Assembly (NCBI GenBank): GCA_020628855.1
Contig: JAHDEL010000029.1
Coordinates: forward strand, 1-38,689
Origin: Saprospiraceae bacterium
GTDB taxonomy: Bacteria > Bacteroidota > Bacteroidia > Chitinophagales > Saprospiraceae
Length of the DNA stretch: 38,689 nucleotides
Reading direction: 5' to 3'
Positions 30,069-38,452 of this stretch are shown here, piece by piece. A program made the translations under genes and the position numbers. The notes beneath the pieces are model-generated. The model had not been told where the DNA came from. It did not search any database and saw nothing but the letters and a program-made list of their open reading frames with translations. Position 1 is the first letter of the stretch. Each line of letters opens with the position of its first letter.

Positions 30069-30824
30069 TTAGTGCGAACGCATCCACTCTACAATGTCAA
30101 TATAGTTTTCTTGACTGATCGTATGTCCTGATTCAAAGTACCGTGCATCTAGTCGATATCCGAGTTGCTCAAGTTGCTGTACGTTGGATTTGACTTCCTT
30201 TGCAGCAAGGACATTATCTTGATTACCATGACTTATATAGATTTCTTGAGTTTGTTTCTTCGGAAATTTGAGTGTATTCAGGTGCTCGGGATACAGTTGA
30301 CCACTCCAGCAGAGTACTCTATCAAAGATTTCTGGATGATTTAATCCAGTCCCCAATGCCATGACTCCTCCTTGGCTAAAACCAGCTACCCAAACTGGTA
30401 AATCCGTAATACTTTCTTGCTGCTGTATTAACAATGTAAACTTGACAATGTCATCTGTGGAATCTAAGACATCTTGTTCTTCATAATCTAAAACCCCATT
30501 TTCTCTAGACATTTGATACCAAGCATATCTATTCTCTCCCATTGTAATTGGTCCACGAGGAGAAACAATAATCAGATCTTGTCTTATGTTCCGTACAAAT
30601 CTTGTGAGATCTTGTTCATTACTTCCTCTCCCATGTAGCAGGATCAGTAAGCCTTTCGGCTCTACACCTTGAACAGGGTGCAGTATCTCATAATGCAATA
30701 TGGATTCTGCGGAGCTTGCTTCTTGAGTAAATTGGGATTGGGCTTGTTCCTTACAGCCAAGACTTAACAAGCAAAGTATTGCCAATTGGAAAAACAGCGA
30801 ATACGGTCTAACTAGTAATGTCAT
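30069..30824 (-). CDS. Phospholipase/carboxylesterase-family lipoprotein
   Basis: 251 residues. A hydrophobic N-terminus ending SLGC (Cys24) looks like a lipoprotein signal. The alpha/beta-hydrolase fold of the PF02230 type follows: LILLHGRGSNEQDL (oxyanion region), AGFSQGGVMALG with the nucleophile Ser in GxSxG, SHGNQDNVL with the acid Asp, and ESGHTIS with the catalytic His. It should hydrolyse an ester bond of a lipid or small acyl compound in the envelope; the substrate is unknown. It is convergent with thrC and lies 105 nt downstream of the T9SS protein gene, so it may be the last gene of that run or separate. Confidence 0.87.
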   Translation of the reverse strand: MTLLVRPYSLFFQLAILCLLSLGCKEQAQSQFTQEASSAESILHYEILHPVQGVEPKGLLILLHGRGSNEQDLTRFVRNIRQDLIIVSPRGPITMGENRYAWYQMSRENGVLDYEEQDVLDSTDDIVKFTLLIQQQESITDLPVWVAGFSQGGVMALGTGLNHPEIFDRVLCWSGQLYPEHLNTLKFPKKQTQEIYISHGNQDNVLAAKEVKSNVQQLEQLGYRLDARYFESGHTISQENYIDIVEWMRSH

Positions 30825-30929
30825 TAGACCAATCTACTGAAAAAAAATTGTATCTCTAGGATGCAACATGGATTCTGGCTCAATACCTCAAAAGAAATGT
30901 GTGAAGAAGATGGGTTTGGTATTGCAATT

Positions 30930-31850
30930 CTACATCTTGAGGAATGGAATAGACACCACGCTACCAATTCCAGTCATCACTATAAAGTACATACCGTTTG
31001 ATAGCATGCTCACATCCAACTCCAATTGAGAAGCATGTACTTCTTTTGCATATTTGATTATCCCATGACTATCTATAATTTGCAAAGCATGGTAGATGCC
31101 TACATCAGATACTTGGAGGTATTGTGATACCGGATTTGGACTAATATCTATGGTGACACTATGGGCTGGATTAGAAGTGAAAGTCAGCTTTGGCGTCTCA
31201 CAATCAAAAAAACTAAAATCTGCCTTTGGGAAGAGCAGTTCGAATCCACTATAATCGAGACCTACTTGATCGTCCGCTTTCTCAATACAAGTGAGAAACT
31301 GAGTTTCGAATAATTGTGTAAACTCAATGAGCTCAGTTGTCAAAATCCCAGTATTCCAACCAAAATTCTCAATCAGGTAGAATGGCAAATCACTATCATA
31401 AAAGACTTTGTGCAGATCTTCTCCTACCTCAATAAATCCAATGCTGTCGACGTGAAAGGTAGAGTCATCACTAATTTCCAAGCTATCTCCAATTTGATAA
31501 TCAAAGTGATACAAAAACTGCCAATCCAATGAAGACATTTGTCTGAAGTACCATCCGTCATCAGCAACCAAGAGTTCGCCAACAGAACGATCAATAGCTT
31601 CTTCAAAAGCTAATTCTCCGGTTAAGGCCCAAGAGGAAGTGCGAACTCCTTCTTCTGATAGAGTATATATCAAATTATTTTCTTCTGATCCAGCGAGGAT
31701 CAATGAGAGTGTTATCTCCTCTTCAATAGTAAAAAGGTCTACATATTCACTACTGTAGAGATACCAACGCTGACTCGCATCGATCTCAAGTTGACAGGAG
31801 ACATCTTGAATTAGCAAACAGATACTCAACAGTGAAAAGAACCATTTCAT
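30930..31850 (-). CDS. Secreted protein with T9SS type A sorting domain
   Basis: 306 residues. A signal peptide covers about 1-20 (LLIQDVSCQ). The C-terminal approximately 80 residues (from DISPNPVSQYLQVSDV to the end, with IIDSHGIIKYAKEVHA and LSNGMYFIVM) match the type IX secretion type A sorting domain, so the protein is exported across the outer membrane and anchored or released at the surface. The approximately 200-residue mature region is acidic with no catalytic motif I recognise. It starts 18 nt after the stop of the LytTR regulator gene and is probably the last member of the receptor/kinase operon. Confidence 0.83.
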   Translation of the reverse strand: MKWFFSLLSICLLIQDVSCQLEIDASQRWYLYSSEYVDLFTIEEEITLSLILAGSEENNLIYTLSEEGVRTSSWALTGELAFEEAIDRSVGELLVADDGWYFRQMSSLDWQFLYHFDYQIGDSLEISDDSTFHVDSIGFIEVGEDLHKVFYDSDLPFYLIENFGWNTGILTTELIEFTQLFETQFLTCIEKADDQVGLDYSGFELLFPKADFSFFDCETPKLTFTSNPAHSVTIDISPNPVSQYLQVSDVGIYHALQIIDSHGIIKYAKEVHASQLELDVSMLSNGMYFIVMTGIGSVVSIPFLKM

Positions 31851-31868
31851 CTAAGGAAGTTACAACAA

Positions 31869-32627
31869 TCAGGTATCAAGCCAAAGTTTAAATGCTTTTA
31901 CCTTTTCACGACTGACGACCATATCATCTTTCAGATTGGTATTGACATCGACCTTTAATCTGCTATTTAGGTATGGGTGTATCTTCTCAATGCTAGGTAA
32001 GGCGAGGATATATTTCCTGCTTATGCGGAAGAAACATGTTGGGTCCAACTCCGCTTCTATTTGATCAAGCGTATGATCTAATAACGACTTGTCACCATTT
32101 ACCGTTAAGGCAAAACTTAATCCATCTTCAGAGAAAATGTAAGCAATTTCGCTAGTCTGCAAATAGCTAAAAGCACTGCCTTTCTTTACTAAGTAACGTT
32201 GTTTATAAGAGTGCCTTTCGGCAAACACCTCTTTTGCCAATGTCTTCCAGTTAATCTGCTGAGTGGGACTCTGGAACAAAGTATTGTACTTTTTCATGGC
32301 ATCAACAAAAGCAGACTCTTCTATGGGCTTTAACAGATAGTCAATACTATTCACTTTAAATGCTTGCAAGGCATATTCATCATACGCGGTTGTGAATATG
32401 AGAGGACATGAAACCTTGACTGATTCGAAAATCTGAAAACTTAACCCATCAGCCAATTGAATATCAATAAATATCAAATCTGGATCCACATGACTTGACA
32501 ACCACTCAATGGATTCTTCTACAGAATCTAACACACCGACGATTGTTGCATCTTGAAGATTCTTCTTGACCAACGCCATCATCCGTTCTGCAGCAAAATG
32601 TTCATCTTCGATAATTAATACTCTCAT
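31869..32627 (-). CDS. LytTR-family response regulator
   Basis: 252 residues. The receiver domain (about 1-118) has the acidic pocket Glu7-Asp8, phospho-acceptor Asp55 in DLIFIDIQLADG, Thr79/Thr80 and Lys100 in DYLLKPIEE, so it is complete. The C-terminal LytTR DNA-binding domain (about 145-252) shows YLVKKGSAFSYLQTSEIAYI and FRISRKYILALPSIEKIHPY with the usual final KVKAFKLWL. It overlaps the kinase gene upstream by 4 bp (ATGA), which makes the two a cognate pair. Target promoters are not evident; control of its own operon is plausible. Confidence 0.95.
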   Translation of the reverse strand: MRVLIIEDEHFAAERMMALVKKNLQDATIVGVLDSVEESIEWLSSHVDPDLIFIDIQLADGLSFQIFESVKVSCPLIFTTAYDEYALQAFKVNSIDYLLKPIEESAFVDAMKKYNTLFQSPTQQINWKTLAKEVFAERHSYKQRYLVKKGSAFSYLQTSEIAYIFSEDGLSFALTVNGDKSLLDHTLDQIEAELDPTCFFRISRKYILALPSIEKIHPYLNSRLKVDVNTNLKDDMVVSREKVKAFKLWLDT

Positions 32628-33664
32628 GAGGCTTGTTTAATTATCGGTAGTTTTACAACAAACTCTTCCGCAGTCTCTTCTACAATAATCTCTTGATTAG
32701 TCAACAATTCGTATCGGGACTTGATATTTGCCAAGCCGAGTTTGGTAGAATTATATTGTTGCTGCTTTCTCTGTAAATTATTCCTCACCGTCACATAGTC
32801 GTTGTCATTACTCAATGAGACTTTGAGCGGCTTGTTCTTTGAGGTGATATTATGCTTTACTGCATTTTCGATAAGTATTTGAAGCGATAATGGTAGAACA
32901 AAATGATGCATAATAGATTCATCGAGTGTATTCAATATCTGAATCTTTCCTTGGAATCTAGTTTTCAACAAATAGATATAGGAATCAAGAGCCTCAAGTT
33001 CTTTCTCAATAGTGATTAATTTTTCATCTCGTACTTCTAAGATATTCCTGTACGTTTTGGAAAGTTTTTGCACAAAATTGATGGCAAGATTTGGCTCTTC
33101 AGGAATGATCGAAACCAAGGTATTCAAGCTATTAAATAAGAAATGCGGATTAACTTGATTCTTGAGGGTACTTAGCTTTTGTTCAGCTGTAATCCTTTCT
33201 AACTTATTCTTTTCGATCTCAGTCAATCTTGATTTATTGAAGTAATAAATGCCTTCATACAAAAAGAACATCATAGCAATGATGATCAGTGTAGTCAATA
33301 ACTCAGATATCATGTTCTTATGTGCAAGCTCAGCAATATGAGGAAAGCAATTGTGAATAATTTGAGTAATCGAAACTTTTACAAGTATTATAGAAAGACC
33401 TACCCAAAAAATGACAAAACCCAACCTACGTACAGTAAATCTATAATCATCAAATCTCTTGTGATACTCAATGATTACCTTTCTGATTAGTATCCAATAA
33501 CAGACAGTGAACGCCATCCCGACTAAAAAACATGCTAGTGGCAATTCGGTAAAAGCATCCCCGAAAGTCATTAGACTAACCAATAATGAGACTACTGGCA
33601 CCCCAAGACAGATTAACCATCTATCATCAAAACCTAGATATTTTATGCTAGTTGATACACTCAT
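32624..33664 (-). CDS. LytS-type sensor histidine kinase (His_kinase family)
   Basis: 346 residues. About four membrane helices occupy residues 12-145 (for example WLICLGVPVVSLLVSLMTF and LLTTLIIIAMMFFLYEGIYY). A coiled linker follows, then the H-box LKNQVNPHFLFNSLNTLVSI of the PF06580 kinases and a HATPase domain with LQILIENAVKHNI (N-box) and a reduced glycine region (LGLANIKSRYEL). There is no large periplasmic domain, so it may sense membrane state or a partner protein. It overlaps by 4 bp both the polytopic membrane protein gene upstream and the regulator gene downstream, which favours a physical partnership with the former. Confidence 0.94.
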   Translation of the reverse strand: MSVSTSIKYLGFDDRWLICLGVPVVSLLVSLMTFGDAFTELPLACFLVGMAFTVCYWILIRKVIIEYHKRFDDYRFTVRRLGFVIFWVGLSIILVKVSITQIIHNCFPHIAELAHKNMISELLTTLIIIAMMFFLYEGIYYFNKSRLTEIEKNKLERITAEQKLSTLKNQVNPHFLFNSLNTLVSIIPEEPNLAINFVQKLSKTYRNILEVRDEKLITIEKELEALDSYIYLLKTRFQGKIQILNTLDESIMHHFVLPLSLQILIENAVKHNITSKNKPLKVSLSNDNDYVTVRNNLQRKQQQYNSTKLGLANIKSRYELLTNQEIIVEETAEEFVVKLPIIKQAS

Positions 33665-34344
33665 TTTTTTGACCTAATTCTTCTTGTCAACGCAACAATA
33701 TCCACAAGATGATTATAAATCACTAAAGGAACAATGATAGCCGGTAATAATACTGCAGGAAACTGCATTACTGCCTTATTCGGTTGATCAAATGCAAACT
33801 GCTGAAAGGGCAACTCTGCGGAAAGCAATGCGTTAATCAAGATGAATAAGACTAAGCCTAATGCAATGCAATTCCAAAGCCTGAGTGCTTGATCTGAAAT
33901 CTTATCATAGTAATATAGTGCCCCCACAATTGGTGCTGTGATACCAGCCAAAATATCAAAATTCCTTCCTTCAAAAGTCATTAACTCAGGAATCAAACCA
34001 TGGACAAACAACTGAAATAGCATGAGCTCTATTGGGATCCTAATCGTATGTAAGAAAGCACTTAATTTGAGATCCCTGACTGCAATTGCTGCATCCAACT
34101 GCCTTGGTAACATGGCATATATGGTTATCAAAATAAAAGGGACAAACATCAATGCAAACCTTGGTGGCATGCTCGTATCTTCATAAAATCCGACGTAAGC
34201 CAAAGCACTGTGCAAGACTGTCCATACAGATAAGAATAGTATTATCTTCCAATTCCTACCATGTACCTTGTAGAACCACCCCAACTCAAAGATGAGAACC
34301 AAGACAAAAACAACTGATATCCAAAGTGGCAAATGTTCACTCAT
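33661..34344 (-). CDS. Polytopic membrane protein of unknown function, kinase partner
   Basis: 227 residues with about seven hydrophobic helices (from LWISVVFVLVLIFELGWFY at the N-terminus to AVLLPAIIVPLVIYNHLVDI near the C-terminus) and a basic tail RRIRSKK. I recognise no transporter or enzyme signature; similar uncharacterised proteins occur in Bacteroidota. The gene starts 21 nt after the receptor stop and overlaps the kinase gene start by 4 bp, so it is probably made together with the kinase. A sensory or ligand-handling role in the kinase complex is an inference from this coupling. Confidence 0.78.
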   Translation of the reverse strand: MSEHLPLWISVVFVLVLIFELGWFYKVHGRNWKIILFLSVWTVLHSALAYVGFYEDTSMPPRFALMFVPFILITIYAMLPRQLDAAIAVRDLKLSAFLHTIRIPIELMLFQLFVHGLIPELMTFEGRNFDILAGITAPIVGALYYYDKISDQALRLWNCIALGLVLFILINALLSAELPFQQFAFDQPNKAVMQFPAVLLPAIIVPLVIYNHLVDIVALTRRIRSKK

Positions 34345-34365
34345 AATCTGAGAAGTTCAATCAAA

Positions 34366-36765
34366 TTAGAATTCAATACGATACATAAAGTTAGGGAAGA
34401 AGCCTATTTGATAGACATCATTCACTTGATTCGTATTTCTATTGTAAGACTGTCTAAAGATATTCTCTGTATTAGTCACATTCTGAATATCAAAGAAGAC
34501 AGATTGTGAGAACTTTCTTTTGACATTATTCAGTTTGACTCCCAGCTTCACATCCCAACGGAAGTAAGGATCGTACTGCAGCTCGAAAGCTTGACTATTG
34601 TCTAGTACTTGTATCTCATTCACTCTGCTTGCTTCAAGGTCAACAGGAGTATAAAATCTCCCTCCTGCCGTTGTCACTTTTGTATCAAATGTGATTCTGT
34701 GTTGTTGTTGACTACCCCACTTGAATTCTTTACCCGCTAACACATTGAAAACATATTGATTATTAAATGCAGTATTACGCTCGACTTCATCACTAGCTGT
34801 ATACTTAGAATCGAAAACAGACCCTGTAGCAAGGACATAATATCCTTGATCAAAGAATTTTTCTAGCGTTAACTCTACTCCTCTATTTACGCCTGTACCT
34901 GCATTTTCCAAATCGTTCTTACCAACACTAAAGCCAAAATCAGCACCTTCATTCAATACTGAATATGTTGTTGACTCTCTATCCACAGGGATATTAAATA
35001 GACTTTGATAATAGACTTCTACTTTAGATCTCCAACTCTTACTGATTTTGAAGTCATGGCCCAACACCATTTGATGGCTCTTCATAAATCCTAAGTTCTT
35101 GTTTGGATTCGTAGACTGTCCATTCACCATCATGGTAGACAGTTGTATAGGAAGAGGCAGAGCTTGACTATGTAGACCATAGCCCAAGCTGATGCTATGT
35201 CGATCACTCATATCGTAACTCAAAGCTGCTCTAGGCTCAACTGCTAAATCTTCATTGACATCATAGTAAAAACCATGGAGGCCAAGATTAGCAGTTAACT
35301 TAGAATTCAGCCTATAGTTAAGGTGAGCATATGGCTGGAAAGAAGTCGCGGTCTCATCGAATTTGTAAACTTCGATCAGATCAAAAATGCCATCGTTATT
35401 ATCATCGATACCAAACTCAGCACTTTCTTGAGAAAGATTGACATTCGTTCGCTCATAAAGCAAACCTGTTCTAATAGTCATTTGAGCATTAATTTTTGAA
35501 TTGTAATAAGTGGATACACTCATCCGCTCTTGACCATCGTCGCCAATAACAAAAGGACGCACTACTTCGTCATCTTGGTCCTGATTGTAATACCTATCCC
35601 TTCCAAACTGGACATTATTTCCAGAAAGGGCAACTACTGTTCTCACATAGCTTTTATCATTAAGTAAGAGGTTATGTTTTAGACCGATTACACCAAATTT
35701 GGAATCTGCTCTTGCATCCTCATCATCAGCAGCAAAGAGATCGGTAGAATCTACTTCTTCATGCAGAAACTCAATGTCACTTGTACCTCCTATCCCAAAG
35801 AGAGTGAAGTTACCAAGCTTGCTTTTTCCAAAATCCAATTTGAATGAAATGTCAGAATAGTTAGGTACCGCGTTCGTACCTATATCCATACCTAAAGCTT
35901 GCGCTAGTCCTAAGAAAGAATAGCGATATCCAATAATAAAACTGCTATTATTCTTCTTAGAAATAGGACCTTCTATAAGTGCCTCGAGACCTGTTATAGC
36001 TCCCATCTGGAACATATATTCCATCTTGTCCTTATTACCGCTTCTGAAGCCTAGATCAAATACTCCCGATAGAGCATTACCATACTCTGCAGGAAATGCA
36101 GATGTCATGAAGTCAGAATTCTTGAGGAAGTTAGGATTCAATGCACTGACTGGTCCACCTGTGGTACCAACAGTACTAAAATGATTCGGAGAAGGAATAG
36201 GAATCCCTTCTAACCTCCATAATAACCCTGTTGGGCTATTCCCTCTAATAACAATATCATTCCTGCTATCATCAGCTGTGCTAACTCCAGCAAAATTACC
36301 AGCCAGTCTACCCACATCACTTCTCCCTCCTGAATAGCGATTGACTTCTTCCATACTGAATTGGCGAGAGGATACAGCTGCTAGATCATTGATTGGTTTG
36401 TCTTTATCGATAGAAGCAGTAATTACTACTTCTTCTAAAGCTACAAGAGACTCCTCCATCTCGATAGTTAAGTACACTTCTTTGCCAGAATTTACTTCAA
36501 TATTTGGTATGATTACTTCTTCGTATCCTAAATAATTGACTTGAAAAGTTTGCCTGCCTATCGGCACCTCTTCTATCACGAAGAGGCCATCAAAATCAGT
36601 AGTCGTACCCATTCCATCAGTTGCAGTTATTACTTGAATGCTTGCCCCAATAAGTGGCATCTCTGATTGTTTGTCAAGGATAATACCTTTCACATTTTGC
36701 ACTCCATTTTGTCCAAATGTATAGAAGCTCATAAACAAGAGAAGCATTGTAATTGGTGTTTTCAT
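34366..36765 (-). CDS. TonB-dependent outer-membrane receptor
   Basis: 799 residues from ATG 36765; the frame reaches 36810, but the chosen start gives a clean signal peptide (MKTPITMLLLFMSFYTFGQ). A CarboxypepD_reg domain follows (about 20-105; VKGIILDKQSEMPLIGASIQ), then the plug (about 120-245; DIVIRGNSPTGLLWRLEGIP) and a 22-strand-type barrel ending FPNFMYRIEF with a terminal Phe. It imports or senses a ligand using energy from TonB. No SusD partner, no TonB/ExbBD and no nutrient-specific enzyme is nearby. It is the first gene of the run with a membrane protein, LytS-type kinase, LytTR regulator and a T9SS cargo protein, so a signalling role is possible. Confidence 0.92.
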   Translation of the reverse strand: MKTPITMLLLFMSFYTFGQNGVQNVKGIILDKQSEMPLIGASIQVITATDGMGTTTDFDGLFVIEEVPIGRQTFQVNYLGYEEVIIPNIEVNSGKEVYLTIEMEESLVALEEVVITASIDKDKPINDLAAVSSRQFSMEEVNRYSGGRSDVGRLAGNFAGVSTADDSRNDIVIRGNSPTGLLWRLEGIPIPSPNHFSTVGTTGGPVSALNPNFLKNSDFMTSAFPAEYGNALSGVFDLGFRSGNKDKMEYMFQMGAITGLEALIEGPISKKNNSSFIIGYRYSFLGLAQALGMDIGTNAVPNYSDISFKLDFGKSKLGNFTLFGIGGTSDIEFLHEEVDSTDLFAADDEDARADSKFGVIGLKHNLLLNDKSYVRTVVALSGNNVQFGRDRYYNQDQDDEVVRPFVIGDDGQERMSVSTYYNSKINAQMTIRTGLLYERTNVNLSQESAEFGIDDNNDGIFDLIEVYKFDETATSFQPYAHLNYRLNSKLTANLGLHGFYYDVNEDLAVEPRAALSYDMSDRHSISLGYGLHSQALPLPIQLSTMMVNGQSTNPNKNLGFMKSHQMVLGHDFKISKSWRSKVEVYYQSLFNIPVDRESTTYSVLNEGADFGFSVGKNDLENAGTGVNRGVELTLEKFFDQGYYVLATGSVFDSKYTASDEVERNTAFNNQYVFNVLAGKEFKWGSQQQHRITFDTKVTTAGGRFYTPVDLEASRVNEIQVLDNSQAFELQYDPYFRWDVKLGVKLNNVKRKFSQSVFFDIQNVTNTENIFRQSYNRNTNQVNDVYQIGFFPNFMYRIEF

Positions 36766-36783
36766 GTGTATGCGATTTTGATT

Positions 36784-36791
36784 CAAAGATG
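36784..36791 (-). promoter_or_regulatory. Putative -7 promoter box for the receptor operon
   Basis: On the minus strand CATCTTTG differs from TAnnTTTG at one base and ends 18 nt before the receptor ATG, the distance seen for other candidate promoters here. About 20 nt upstream lies only CTTTC, a weak -33 box. Confidence 0.33.
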
Positions 36792-36856
36792 AATCTGTCA
36801 AGCACAACATGAAAGCTGTTTCTGATGAACTGTAGAATTGTTAAGTTGAATTGTAA

Positions 36857-37285
36857 TTACCCGCCTTTTAAAAGCGCTTTGACTTCCGGTTTGGTGATTT
36901 CCACGAAAGTGAAAACACCAAGAGCTATGCCCAAAATGCCAGTTAGACAACAGAGAATTCCTGTTACAAAGACCAAATTATACTGTGTTCGATTCTGGAT
37001 AGCTCGAGCAGAGAGAAAGCAACAGACTGCGACAGCTATAACGAAAATGGCAGCAAAGGACATGATAATTGTGATCAAGGTAAACGGAAAAAAACTTGGA
37101 TCCACAGAAGAAGTATCCATAGCAATCCTACCAAAAAAAGCAGGTAAACCAAAGGACATAACAAGGAAGTAGAGTCCGGTCAAACTAGACAGCACACCTT
37201 TGACGATATAGAAGATTCTTAATAGATCCAGATTATTGCTATCCTCTTGTGTCAAAACCGGTCTTGATATTTCCTGGCTTTCCAT
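36857..37285 (-). CDS. Small four-helix membrane protein of unknown function
   Basis: 142 residues with about four predicted membrane helices (LSSLTGLYFLVMSFGLPAFF, FTLITIIMSFAAIFVIAVAV, then FVTGILCCLTGILGIALGVF, plus a weaker N-terminal one) after a polar N-terminus. I recognise no family signature. It overlaps the acyltransferase gene upstream by 34 bp and is presumably co-expressed with it, so a role at the membrane alongside phospholipid synthesis is possible but unproven. Confidence 0.72.
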   Translation of the reverse strand: MESQEISRPVLTQEDSNNLDLLRIFYIVKGVLSSLTGLYFLVMSFGLPAFFGRIAMDTSSVDPSFFPFTLITIIMSFAAIFVIAVAVCCFLSARAIQNRTQYNLVFVTGILCCLTGILGIALGVFTFVEITKPEVKALLKGG

Positions 37286-38415
37286 ATCCTAAATATATCA
37301 AAATAAAAGATCGCGAACAATCCTAAAGCGGTCAAGAGGAAGGCAGGAGCTAATGTGCCAAAACCAAAGAGCGCTATACTTTTTATGACGATATAATACA
37401 GCATAAGATTAAGCATGAGGACCACGACACGCAAGGATAGATAGAATTCGTTCTTTCTGATTCGCTTCTTTACGAAGGTGTGACTCATTTGATAAGGAAT
37501 ATAATGCAGCACTTTGCCCAACATTGCTGGTATGAATCCGAGGATAAGAAAGCATTTGTGAAAGAGATTAAGTTCTCTAGATTTTACAACATCAGAAAAT
37601 GTGAGATTCTGCTCCCAAAGTTCTGTTCTCAATGCGTTTACCAGATCATTTCTAGGCACAAAATCACCTGATCTTAATCTGGTCATCCCATCTTTCCATT
37701 GCTGAATAAATGGTTTGCCAAAACTGGCTTCCAAGTGCATTGCTTCTTCAAATGTGAGTTCTTCTTCTGCAGTGATTGTTGGCAGTAAGTCATTAAATTC
37801 CTGCTCTACTCTCACAAGAAGATTTTTGGCGAATACTGCAGTATTTTCGGCAGTTCTAAAATATTCCTGAGCAGGAATAGGATCTGCAATAATTACGCTG
37901 CAGTCACCCCTTAAGATATTGGGATCGCTATAGACAAATCCAATAGGGATAATCTGTACATCGGCACCTGGGTGCTGCTCCATAGTTTTGTATGCTATGT
38001 GAGCAAAACCTTTCTTCAATCTTCTTAGTCTTCTGACTTGATTGTTAGTTCCTTCTGCGAAGATGATGAGAAGGTTATTCTTAATAATGAGATCAACACA
38101 TGTCTGAAAAGTTACCTCATTATCCTTAACACTATTATATCCATCCTCAGATTTATAGATAGGCACACCGTGTATCTTATCAAGCAACCAAGCAAAAATG
38201 TTATTTACCTTCCAAAAATTACCATTAATCAGAAAATGCAGTGGTCGCATGATCCACGTAGCAAGGATAATAGGCTCTAGATAAGCTGACGGGTGATTAC
38301 TCACAAAGATCACCGGCTTGTTCTTGGGAATCTTTTCTCTACCAATGATTTCAACTCTCTTATAGGAAAATTGTAAAGTGATTCGAATTAAGAACTTGAG
38401 AATTGTATACACCAT
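37252..38415 (-). CDS. PlsC-family 1-acyl-glycerol-3-phosphate acyltransferase
   Basis: 387 residues from ATG 38415; the frame opens earlier only at a TTG (38427). It likely transfers an acyl chain to lysophosphatidate or a related lipid at the inner membrane. Motif I reads VSNHPSAYLEP, that is His41-x5-Glu47, rather than the standard H-x4-D. Motif III is FAEGTNNQVRRLRRLKKG, with a conserved IIPIGFVYSDP further on. Two or three hydrophobic helices lie in the C-terminal region (about 285-375; for example LVVLMLNLMLYYIVIKSI), which makes it longer than simple PlsC proteins (about 245 aa). The substrate may differ from phosphatidate precursors. The small membrane protein gene overlaps its end by 34 bp. 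Confidence 0.87.
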   Translation of the reverse strand: MVYTILKFLIRITLQFSYKRVEIIGREKIPKNKPVIFVSNHPSAYLEPIILATWIMRPLHFLINGNFWKVNNIFAWLLDKIHGVPIYKSEDGYNSVKDNEVTFQTCVDLIIKNNLLIIFAEGTNNQVRRLRRLKKGFAHIAYKTMEQHPGADVQIIPIGFVYSDPNILRGDCSVIIADPIPAQEYFRTAENTAVFAKNLLVRVEQEFNDLLPTITAEEELTFEEAMHLEASFGKPFIQQWKDGMTRLRSGDFVPRNDLVNALRTELWEQNLTFSDVVKSRELNLFHKCFLILGFIPAMLGKVLHYIPYQMSHTFVKKRIRKNEFYLSLRVVVLMLNLMLYYIVIKSIALFGFGTLAPAFLLTALGLFAIFYFDIFRIWKARKYQDRF

Positions 38416-38452
38416 AGCGTGATACAAAGCTAAGGAATGCTCTCCAATCTCT

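Follow-up and report, generated by a model that had tools for sequence, protein, structure and literature searches.

In Pseudomonas aeruginosa the kinase PfeS responds to ferri-enterobactin after its import by PfeA or PirA and induces pfeA (PMC8001512). Operons of LytTR regulators carry 9-bp repeats that lie mostly 12 bp apart, are biased to a position 10 bp before -35 and mediate positive autoregulation (PMC6193735). The Bacteroidota hold many TonB-dependent receptors and many LytS/LytTR pairs of unknown purpose. Here we analyse a stretch of 38,689 nucleotides from a Saprospiraceae bacterium (assembly GCA_020628855.1, contig JAHDEL010000029.1, positions 1 to 38,689; the whole stretch is referred to as the window), in which a gene for a TonB-dependent receptor is followed by genes for a polytopic membrane protein, a LytS-type histidine kinase, a LytTR response regulator and a predicted cargo protein of the type IX secretion system (T9SS). 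The conserved module in this row comprises the receptor, the kinase and the regulator. We propose, with about even confidence, that this core is a dedicated uptake-and-sensing module, in which the promoter of a TonB-dependent receptor is controlled by the LytS/LytTR pair encoded alongside it. A literature search, in which subscription papers were thinly covered, found no description of a receptor-LytS-LytTR module.

Linkage of a receptor clade to LytS/LytTR pairs

A search of 60 genomes for the receptor gave matches of which only some were followed, as 60 stretches around chosen ones. When 61 receptors were arranged in a tree, every one of the 27 that have a kinase or regulator gene within 5 kb fell into a single clade of 31 rows. 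Searches with hidden Markov models give linkage to a LytS kinase and/or a LytTR regulator within this distance for 27/31 members of the clade, compared to 2/30 other receptors, both with weak regulator matches (22-29 bits); Fisher's test gives p ~7e-11, a value that overstates the independence of the rows, which are kin. The four unlinked rows of the clade are L053 (with only 1.6 kb of sequence downstream), L038 (from a genome that also carries a linked copy, L039) and the sisters L062 and L072. A scan of named genomes, restricted to one genome per species and to the best 80 of 589 relatives, with titles from Saprospiraceae, Flavobacteriaceae, Cytophagales, Chitinophagaceae, Bacteroidales, Ignavibacteria and others, revealed that 56/80 loci have a kinase gene, a regulator gene or both no more than 5 kb away (both in 50); where 2.5 kb or more of sequence is available to the left and to the right, 43/54 loci are linked. 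(Four apparent repeats of loci from the first set, L112, L119, L137 and L151, recognized by contigs of equal length, are kept in the counts of gene order, of 56/80 linkage, of sites at the shuffle threshold and of repeat-to-box spacing, and left out of those of third genes, the general consensus, repeat periods and loci with no site.) The linked loci span several lineages of Bacteroidota as well as Ignavibacteria, and their gene order varies between receptor-kinase-regulator, kinase-regulator-receptor and divergent arrangements, with the kinase located upstream on the other strand in 17 loci. Cultured carriers of the module include Kordia periserrulae DSM 25731 (L147) and Ulvibacterium marinum (L121). 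The sequence-only reading had named rare adjacency of receptor and kinase pair in other genomes as the fact that would count against it; as the two are commonly adjacent and form a conserved unit, this objection fails, and the receptor-LytS/LytTR unit is both right and wider in range than was thought.

Could the linkage be mere coincidence, given that both LytS/LytTR pairs and receptors of this family are abundant? In the 14 genomes searched, the number of PF06580 matches reaches 33 per genome, and the window's own genome of 3.4 Mb holds 7, along with 11 PF04397 matches. The control with sister receptors (2/30), the survival of the linkage through changed gene orders and the site at a fixed promoter spacing described below all argue against chance neighbourhood, which we regard as very improbable.

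The pair itself is a LytS/LytTR two-component system, with a PF06580 protein that possesses H, N and G boxes (the motifs NPHFLFN, ENAVKH and GLAN are intact) and a regulator composed of a receiver and a LytTR domain. Only hydrophobic segments precede the catalytic motifs of the kinase, and there is no periplasmic domain. A tree was built from 76 receptor-linked kinases and 29 others from the 14-genome sample (105 in total). In it, 64 linked sequences fall into one strongly supported group of 67; linked kinases outside this group include 7 from Bacteroidales, Bacteroidia and Ignavibacteria and 2 from Niastella. A single clade of linked kinases is only marginally rejected (approximately unbiased test, p 0.042, for 54 rows of a reduced set that was named after the first tree). 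Within the main group, 62 kinases exhibit a conserved catalytic part and a membrane part that is hardly conserved. Three of its members occur without this receptor (L262:6216-9281, L263:4662-8667 and L264:6181-9883); their partners are small membrane proteins (in L262 an ABA4-like and a polytopic one) or a secreted TPR-like protein and two short ones, encoded between the kinase gene and the regulator gene.

The receptor was analysed with Pfam together with the other operon genes and their flanks (eight proteins, 30069-38427). The scan identified CarbopepD_reg_2 and a Plug match of 23.1 bits, just under the cut-off of 23.9, and no STN domain in the receptor; among the eight proteins no SusD family, FecR or extracytoplasmic function (ECF) sigma factor was found, which sets the receptor apart from SusCD pairs and from FecA-type signalling receptors. 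Its predicted structure is a barrel (pLDDT 77.8, pTM 0.80) with a plug region that is in part of low confidence. The lists from fold comparison are filled by TonB-dependent transporters with scores alike across many of them: receptors for siderophores and cobalamin reach Z 32.0 at best and a SusC chain scores Z 28.5, so no substrate class is singled out. A search against the sequences of solved structures gave one credible match, between receptor residues 22-116 and 6ytc, a 93-residue entry of a TonB-dependent receptor. Residues ~111-117, EEVVITA, resemble a TonB box by eye. By its plug match, predicted barrel and fold comparison, the protein is a TonB-dependent transporter, a class defined by a plug inside a 22-strand-type barrel and by a TonB box.

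Or perhaps the loaded receptor, via TonB and a contact in the periplasm, turns the kinase on directly, in the manner of FecA and FecR but by way of a phosphorelay? The tight linkage of receptor and pair would fit, as would the paralogous receptors of L059, L066 and L080, which are each preceded by a conserved row that encodes an ECF sigma factor, FecR and STN-domain proteins and a small outer-membrane barrel (assigned with Pfam in L059, e.g. L059:3540-10322, and by clustering in the other two). The gap of 175-293 nt before these three receptors makes a single operon there only putative, however, and neither an STN domain on the receptor nor a periplasmic domain on the kinase is available for such a contact; we therefore consider direct signalling unlikely. 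The receptor may relay a signal or may be a regulated importer only, and the missing STN domain speaks against signalling of the Fec type. A broader version, in which STN-less receptors would act as sensors of a phylum-wide outer-membrane relay and be coupled to LytS/LytTR phosphorelays that were recruited on more than one occasion, appears similarly improbable. As an observation in its own right, the arrangement of L059, L066 and L080 suggests that receptors of one family may be coupled to relays of more than one kind.

Two further observations concern related receptors. The metagenome-assembled genome H3_Bin_METABAT__97_1_1 encodes two close receptors, L111 and L164, 67 and 69% identical to that of the window, and of the two, L164 alone carries a kinase pair as well as the site. 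Several unlinked Flavobacterium receptors (L144, L146, L152 and L156) lie near a gene for a protein of ~193 residues with a cNMP-binding domain.

Predicted operator and proposed working

A direct repeat, ACARTTCA-N13-ACRGTTCA, was read from eight upstream regions (that of the window and seven others). In the window the repeat and a -7-like box form a composite site at 36784-36854, ahead of the receptor gene. At p <=0.02 against shuffled sequences, the repeat is found before 33/79 linked and 3/57 unlinked receptors, the latter three (L128, L135 and L145) on short stretches. A scan for any repeated 8-mer, irrespective of its sequence, revealed a period of 21 before 33/63 linked receptors (median 7 over periods 9-45, next best 14). 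The 12 Flavobacteriaceae with divergent gene order, excluded from this count, exhibit a peak at period 20 (8/12); the 57 unlinked receptors show no such peak, with 10 and 8 for periods 20 and 21 and a median of 6. In 38 sites, including those of L128, L135 and L145 added by hand, the box starts 34 nt after the repeat in 16 and 35 nt in 7, and shuffled tails give at most 4 at any offset. Ten of these sites, from the divergent Flavobacteriaceae, face the kinase gene instead, and the spacing is kept in 6/10.

The composite is nearly unique. With up to 3 mismatches it occurs once in the window's own genome, once in each of two congeners, and 2, 2 and 4 times in three further genomes (reversed control 0 or 1). 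The exact repeat pattern occurs once in the window's genome, and over five genomes once in each of four and twice in the fifth. The repeat alone, with 2 mismatches, gives 7 to 22 matches per genome in six genomes and exceeds the reversed control only in G036; therefore it gives no basis for a wider regulon. LytTR target operons are marked by direct repeats that recur after ~21 bp and keep a set distance to the promoter. The site in front of the receptor gene has this form, which suggests that the operon is under the control of the pair.

Two extra perfect composite matches head other kinase-regulator operons. One of them, L265:3091-8199, comprises genes for a different TonB-dependent receptor, a DUF2141 protein, a TPR-like protein, a kinase and a regulator, and by its predicted gene content is a second type of receptor-LytS-LytTR operon. 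The other, L266:4876-9487, encodes a 551-residue protein with no Pfam family, two kinase-like proteins and a regulator. Because of these two matches, the spacing rule (repeat period 20-21; -7 box 34 or 35 nt from the repeat) could be of use in finding targets of other LytTR regulators in Bacteroidota.

Gene order, conserved linkage, intact kinase motifs and a conserved site at a fixed promoter spacing emerge directly from the computations, whereas binding by this regulator, activation rather than repression, a single transcript, import of a ligand and the stimulus of the kinase are inferred. The receptor would import a small ligand into the periplasm, and the kinase, composed of membrane segments and a catalytic domain, would respond at the inner membrane to the ligand or to its effect; that the stimulus may be the imported ligand is suggested by analogy with PfeS. 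The phosphorylated regulator would then bind the repeat with its 21-bp period and activate the promoter, which has its -7 box 34 nt from the repeat, and the levels of receptor, kinase and regulator would climb together in a positive feedback. Activation by the regulator of its own operon is proposed because the geometry matches that of published autoregulated LytTR operons.

Several findings weigh against this proposal. The half-site and the box were picked after inspection of the eight upstream regions; in 45/79 linked loci no site passed the threshold (L031 among them has one, its open reading frame (ORF) being called too long), and a general LytTR consensus hardly discriminates (16/75 linked, 5/57 unlinked, shuffles 10-11%). 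The pair is absent within 5 kb in 24/80 loci, 11 of which have at least 2.5 kb on both sides. The variable membrane part of the kinase fits poorly with one common ligand, and would be easier to reconcile with simple starvation control, in which the kinase senses shortage or the state of the envelope and the pair just raises the expression of a receptor with no signalling role. Such control predicts identical genes and an identical site, and agrees with the lack of STN in the receptor. It also has a precedent in two-component control of a receptor by the iron level: the regulator VgrR of VgrRS represses the receptor gene tdvA (PMC5231390), and this sign of control is a further point against activation. 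However, a regulon of one operon, with one composite site in the genome, would be unusual for a general starvation response, and the linkage is to this receptor clade and not to other uptake genes. We regard starvation control as a possible, rather doubtful alternative to the uptake-and-sensing module.

The window operon and its probable local additions

Features of the window locus, with coordinates in the window
Feature	Coordinates	Strand	Remarks
TonB-dependent receptor, 799 aa	34366..36765	minus	CarbopepD_reg_2, plug and barrel, no STN
Polytopic membrane protein, 227 aa	33661..34344	minus	no Pfam family
LytS-type histidine kinase, 346 aa	32624..33664	minus	PF06580; membrane segments alone precede the catalytic part
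LytTR response regulator, 252 aa	31869..32627	minus	Pfam Response_reg and LytTR
T9SS cargo protein, 306 aa	30930..31850	minus	Pfam Por_Secre_tail
LytTR-type direct repeat ACAATTCA-N13-ACAGTTCA, period 21 bp	36826..36854	minus	predicted operator of the regulator
Bacteroidota-like -7 box CATCTTTG	36784..36791	minus	predicted; 34 nt after the repeat

According to the ORF list, the five genes are separated by 21, -4, -4 and 18 nt from receptor to cargo, and they are probably carried on one transcript. Of two terminator-like matches on the minus strand, one lies inside the receptor gene and the other inside the polytopic gene, and none was found on this strand between the operon genes. The longest ORF of the receptor begins at 36810; a start at 36765 is likelier, because the alignments of the closest relatives begin at residue 16-18 of this ORF and because the predicted -7 box (36784-36791) would fall inside it. 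The upstream gene (36857-37285) stops 2 nt short of the direct repeat, and an esterase gene on the same strand, 105 nt beyond the cargo gene, could share the transcript.

The analysis recovered the five genes and spacings of the sequence-only reading and bore out its description of a receptor with no SusD and a kinase with no periplasmic sensor domain. Its larger idea, a circuit of five genes that could carry a signal from the outer membrane to a secreted product, stands only for the receptor and the LytS/LytTR unit; the secreted-product end is not supported, as the polytopic protein and the cargo are absent from the other receptor-kinase operons examined and the only composite site found in the window's genome is that of the operon's own promoter. 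Homologs of the polytopic protein are present in 27/61 genomes of the family. In 19 loci outside the window, with ~5 kb flanks where the contig allowed, none shares an operon with the receptor, the kinase or the regulator. In L278 a kinase-regulator pair lies ~4 kb off, on the opposite strand; a receptor homolog is present in L288 (433 bits) and a weak one in L289 (61 bits), and L275, L281 and L287 show weak receiver-type matches (25-32 bits). Conversely, the receptor loci that hold a polytopic homolog are only the window and L117, where it is on the opposite strand. A structure model of this protein built from two sequences was not used (mean pLDDT 48.7).

The cargo protein ends in a sorting domain (Por_Secre_tail, 32.1 bits, cut-off 27; TIGR04183, 22 bits, just under the cut-off of 23) and with this C-terminal domain qualifies as T9SS cargo. 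Over its full length it is matched only by itself in 40 genomes; nearly all other matches cover the sorting tail, and a few weak ones are longer. It was not found in the other receptor-kinase operons examined, none of which holds the polytopic protein either, and the five-gene circuit was rejected as a conserved unit. Both genes look like local additions to the operon, which in the window organism may have joined the probable transcript as extra outputs.

No third gene conserved over all lineages was found at the receptor loci. The commonest extra families are an SDR-type oxidoreductase, encoded on the receptor's strand in 11 loci (L118, L121, L127, L132, L140, L147 and five more), in several directly after the receptor, and a family of ~185 residues in 8; the former may hint at the chemistry of the ligand. 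In three loci from Bacteroidia and Ignavibacteria (L171:8367-9884, L176:8367-9878 and L178:2550-4007) a polytopic protein of ~485-505 residues is encoded between receptor and kinase, and no Pfam family was identified in the two of the three that were scanned.

Relation to known systems

The proposed module ties one receptor clade to one pair by a nearly unique predicted operator, which makes the stimulus of the kinase accessible to experiment through a defined receptor, its promoter and a reporter. Among described systems, SusCD loci share with it a Bacteroidota TonB-dependent receptor with CarbopepD_reg_2, and differ in their SusD partner, of which the eight scanned proteins contain no representative. 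The FecA-FecR-FecI system likewise links the gene of a TonB-dependent receptor to an inner-membrane relay; here the receptor has no STN domain, the operon genes include no FecR or ECF sigma factor, and the relay is a phosphorylation pair. The LytTR regulatory systems (LRS) HdrRM and BrsRM of Streptococcus mutans resemble the module in their LytTR regulator and in direct repeats fixed before the operon promoter, and are autoregulated (PMC6193735). An LRS consists, however, of a LytTR regulator and a membrane inhibitor protein in kinase-free control, whereas here an intact PF06580 kinase adjoins a regulator with a receiver domain and the first gene encodes a receptor.

The closest likeness is to PfeA-PfeS/PfeR and PirA-PirS/PirR, where a TonB-dependent transporter has a dedicated two-component pair that induces transcription (PMC8001512). 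The module described here differs in its LytS/LytTR pair and LytTR direct repeat, and the likeness is one of analogy, by which a ligand and induction would be expected here as well. PfeS and PfeR presumably belong to another family of kinases and regulators than LytS/LytTR. Thus, receptors with a two-component pair of their own are known, and what is new is that the parts are LytS and LytTR, with a predicted operator.

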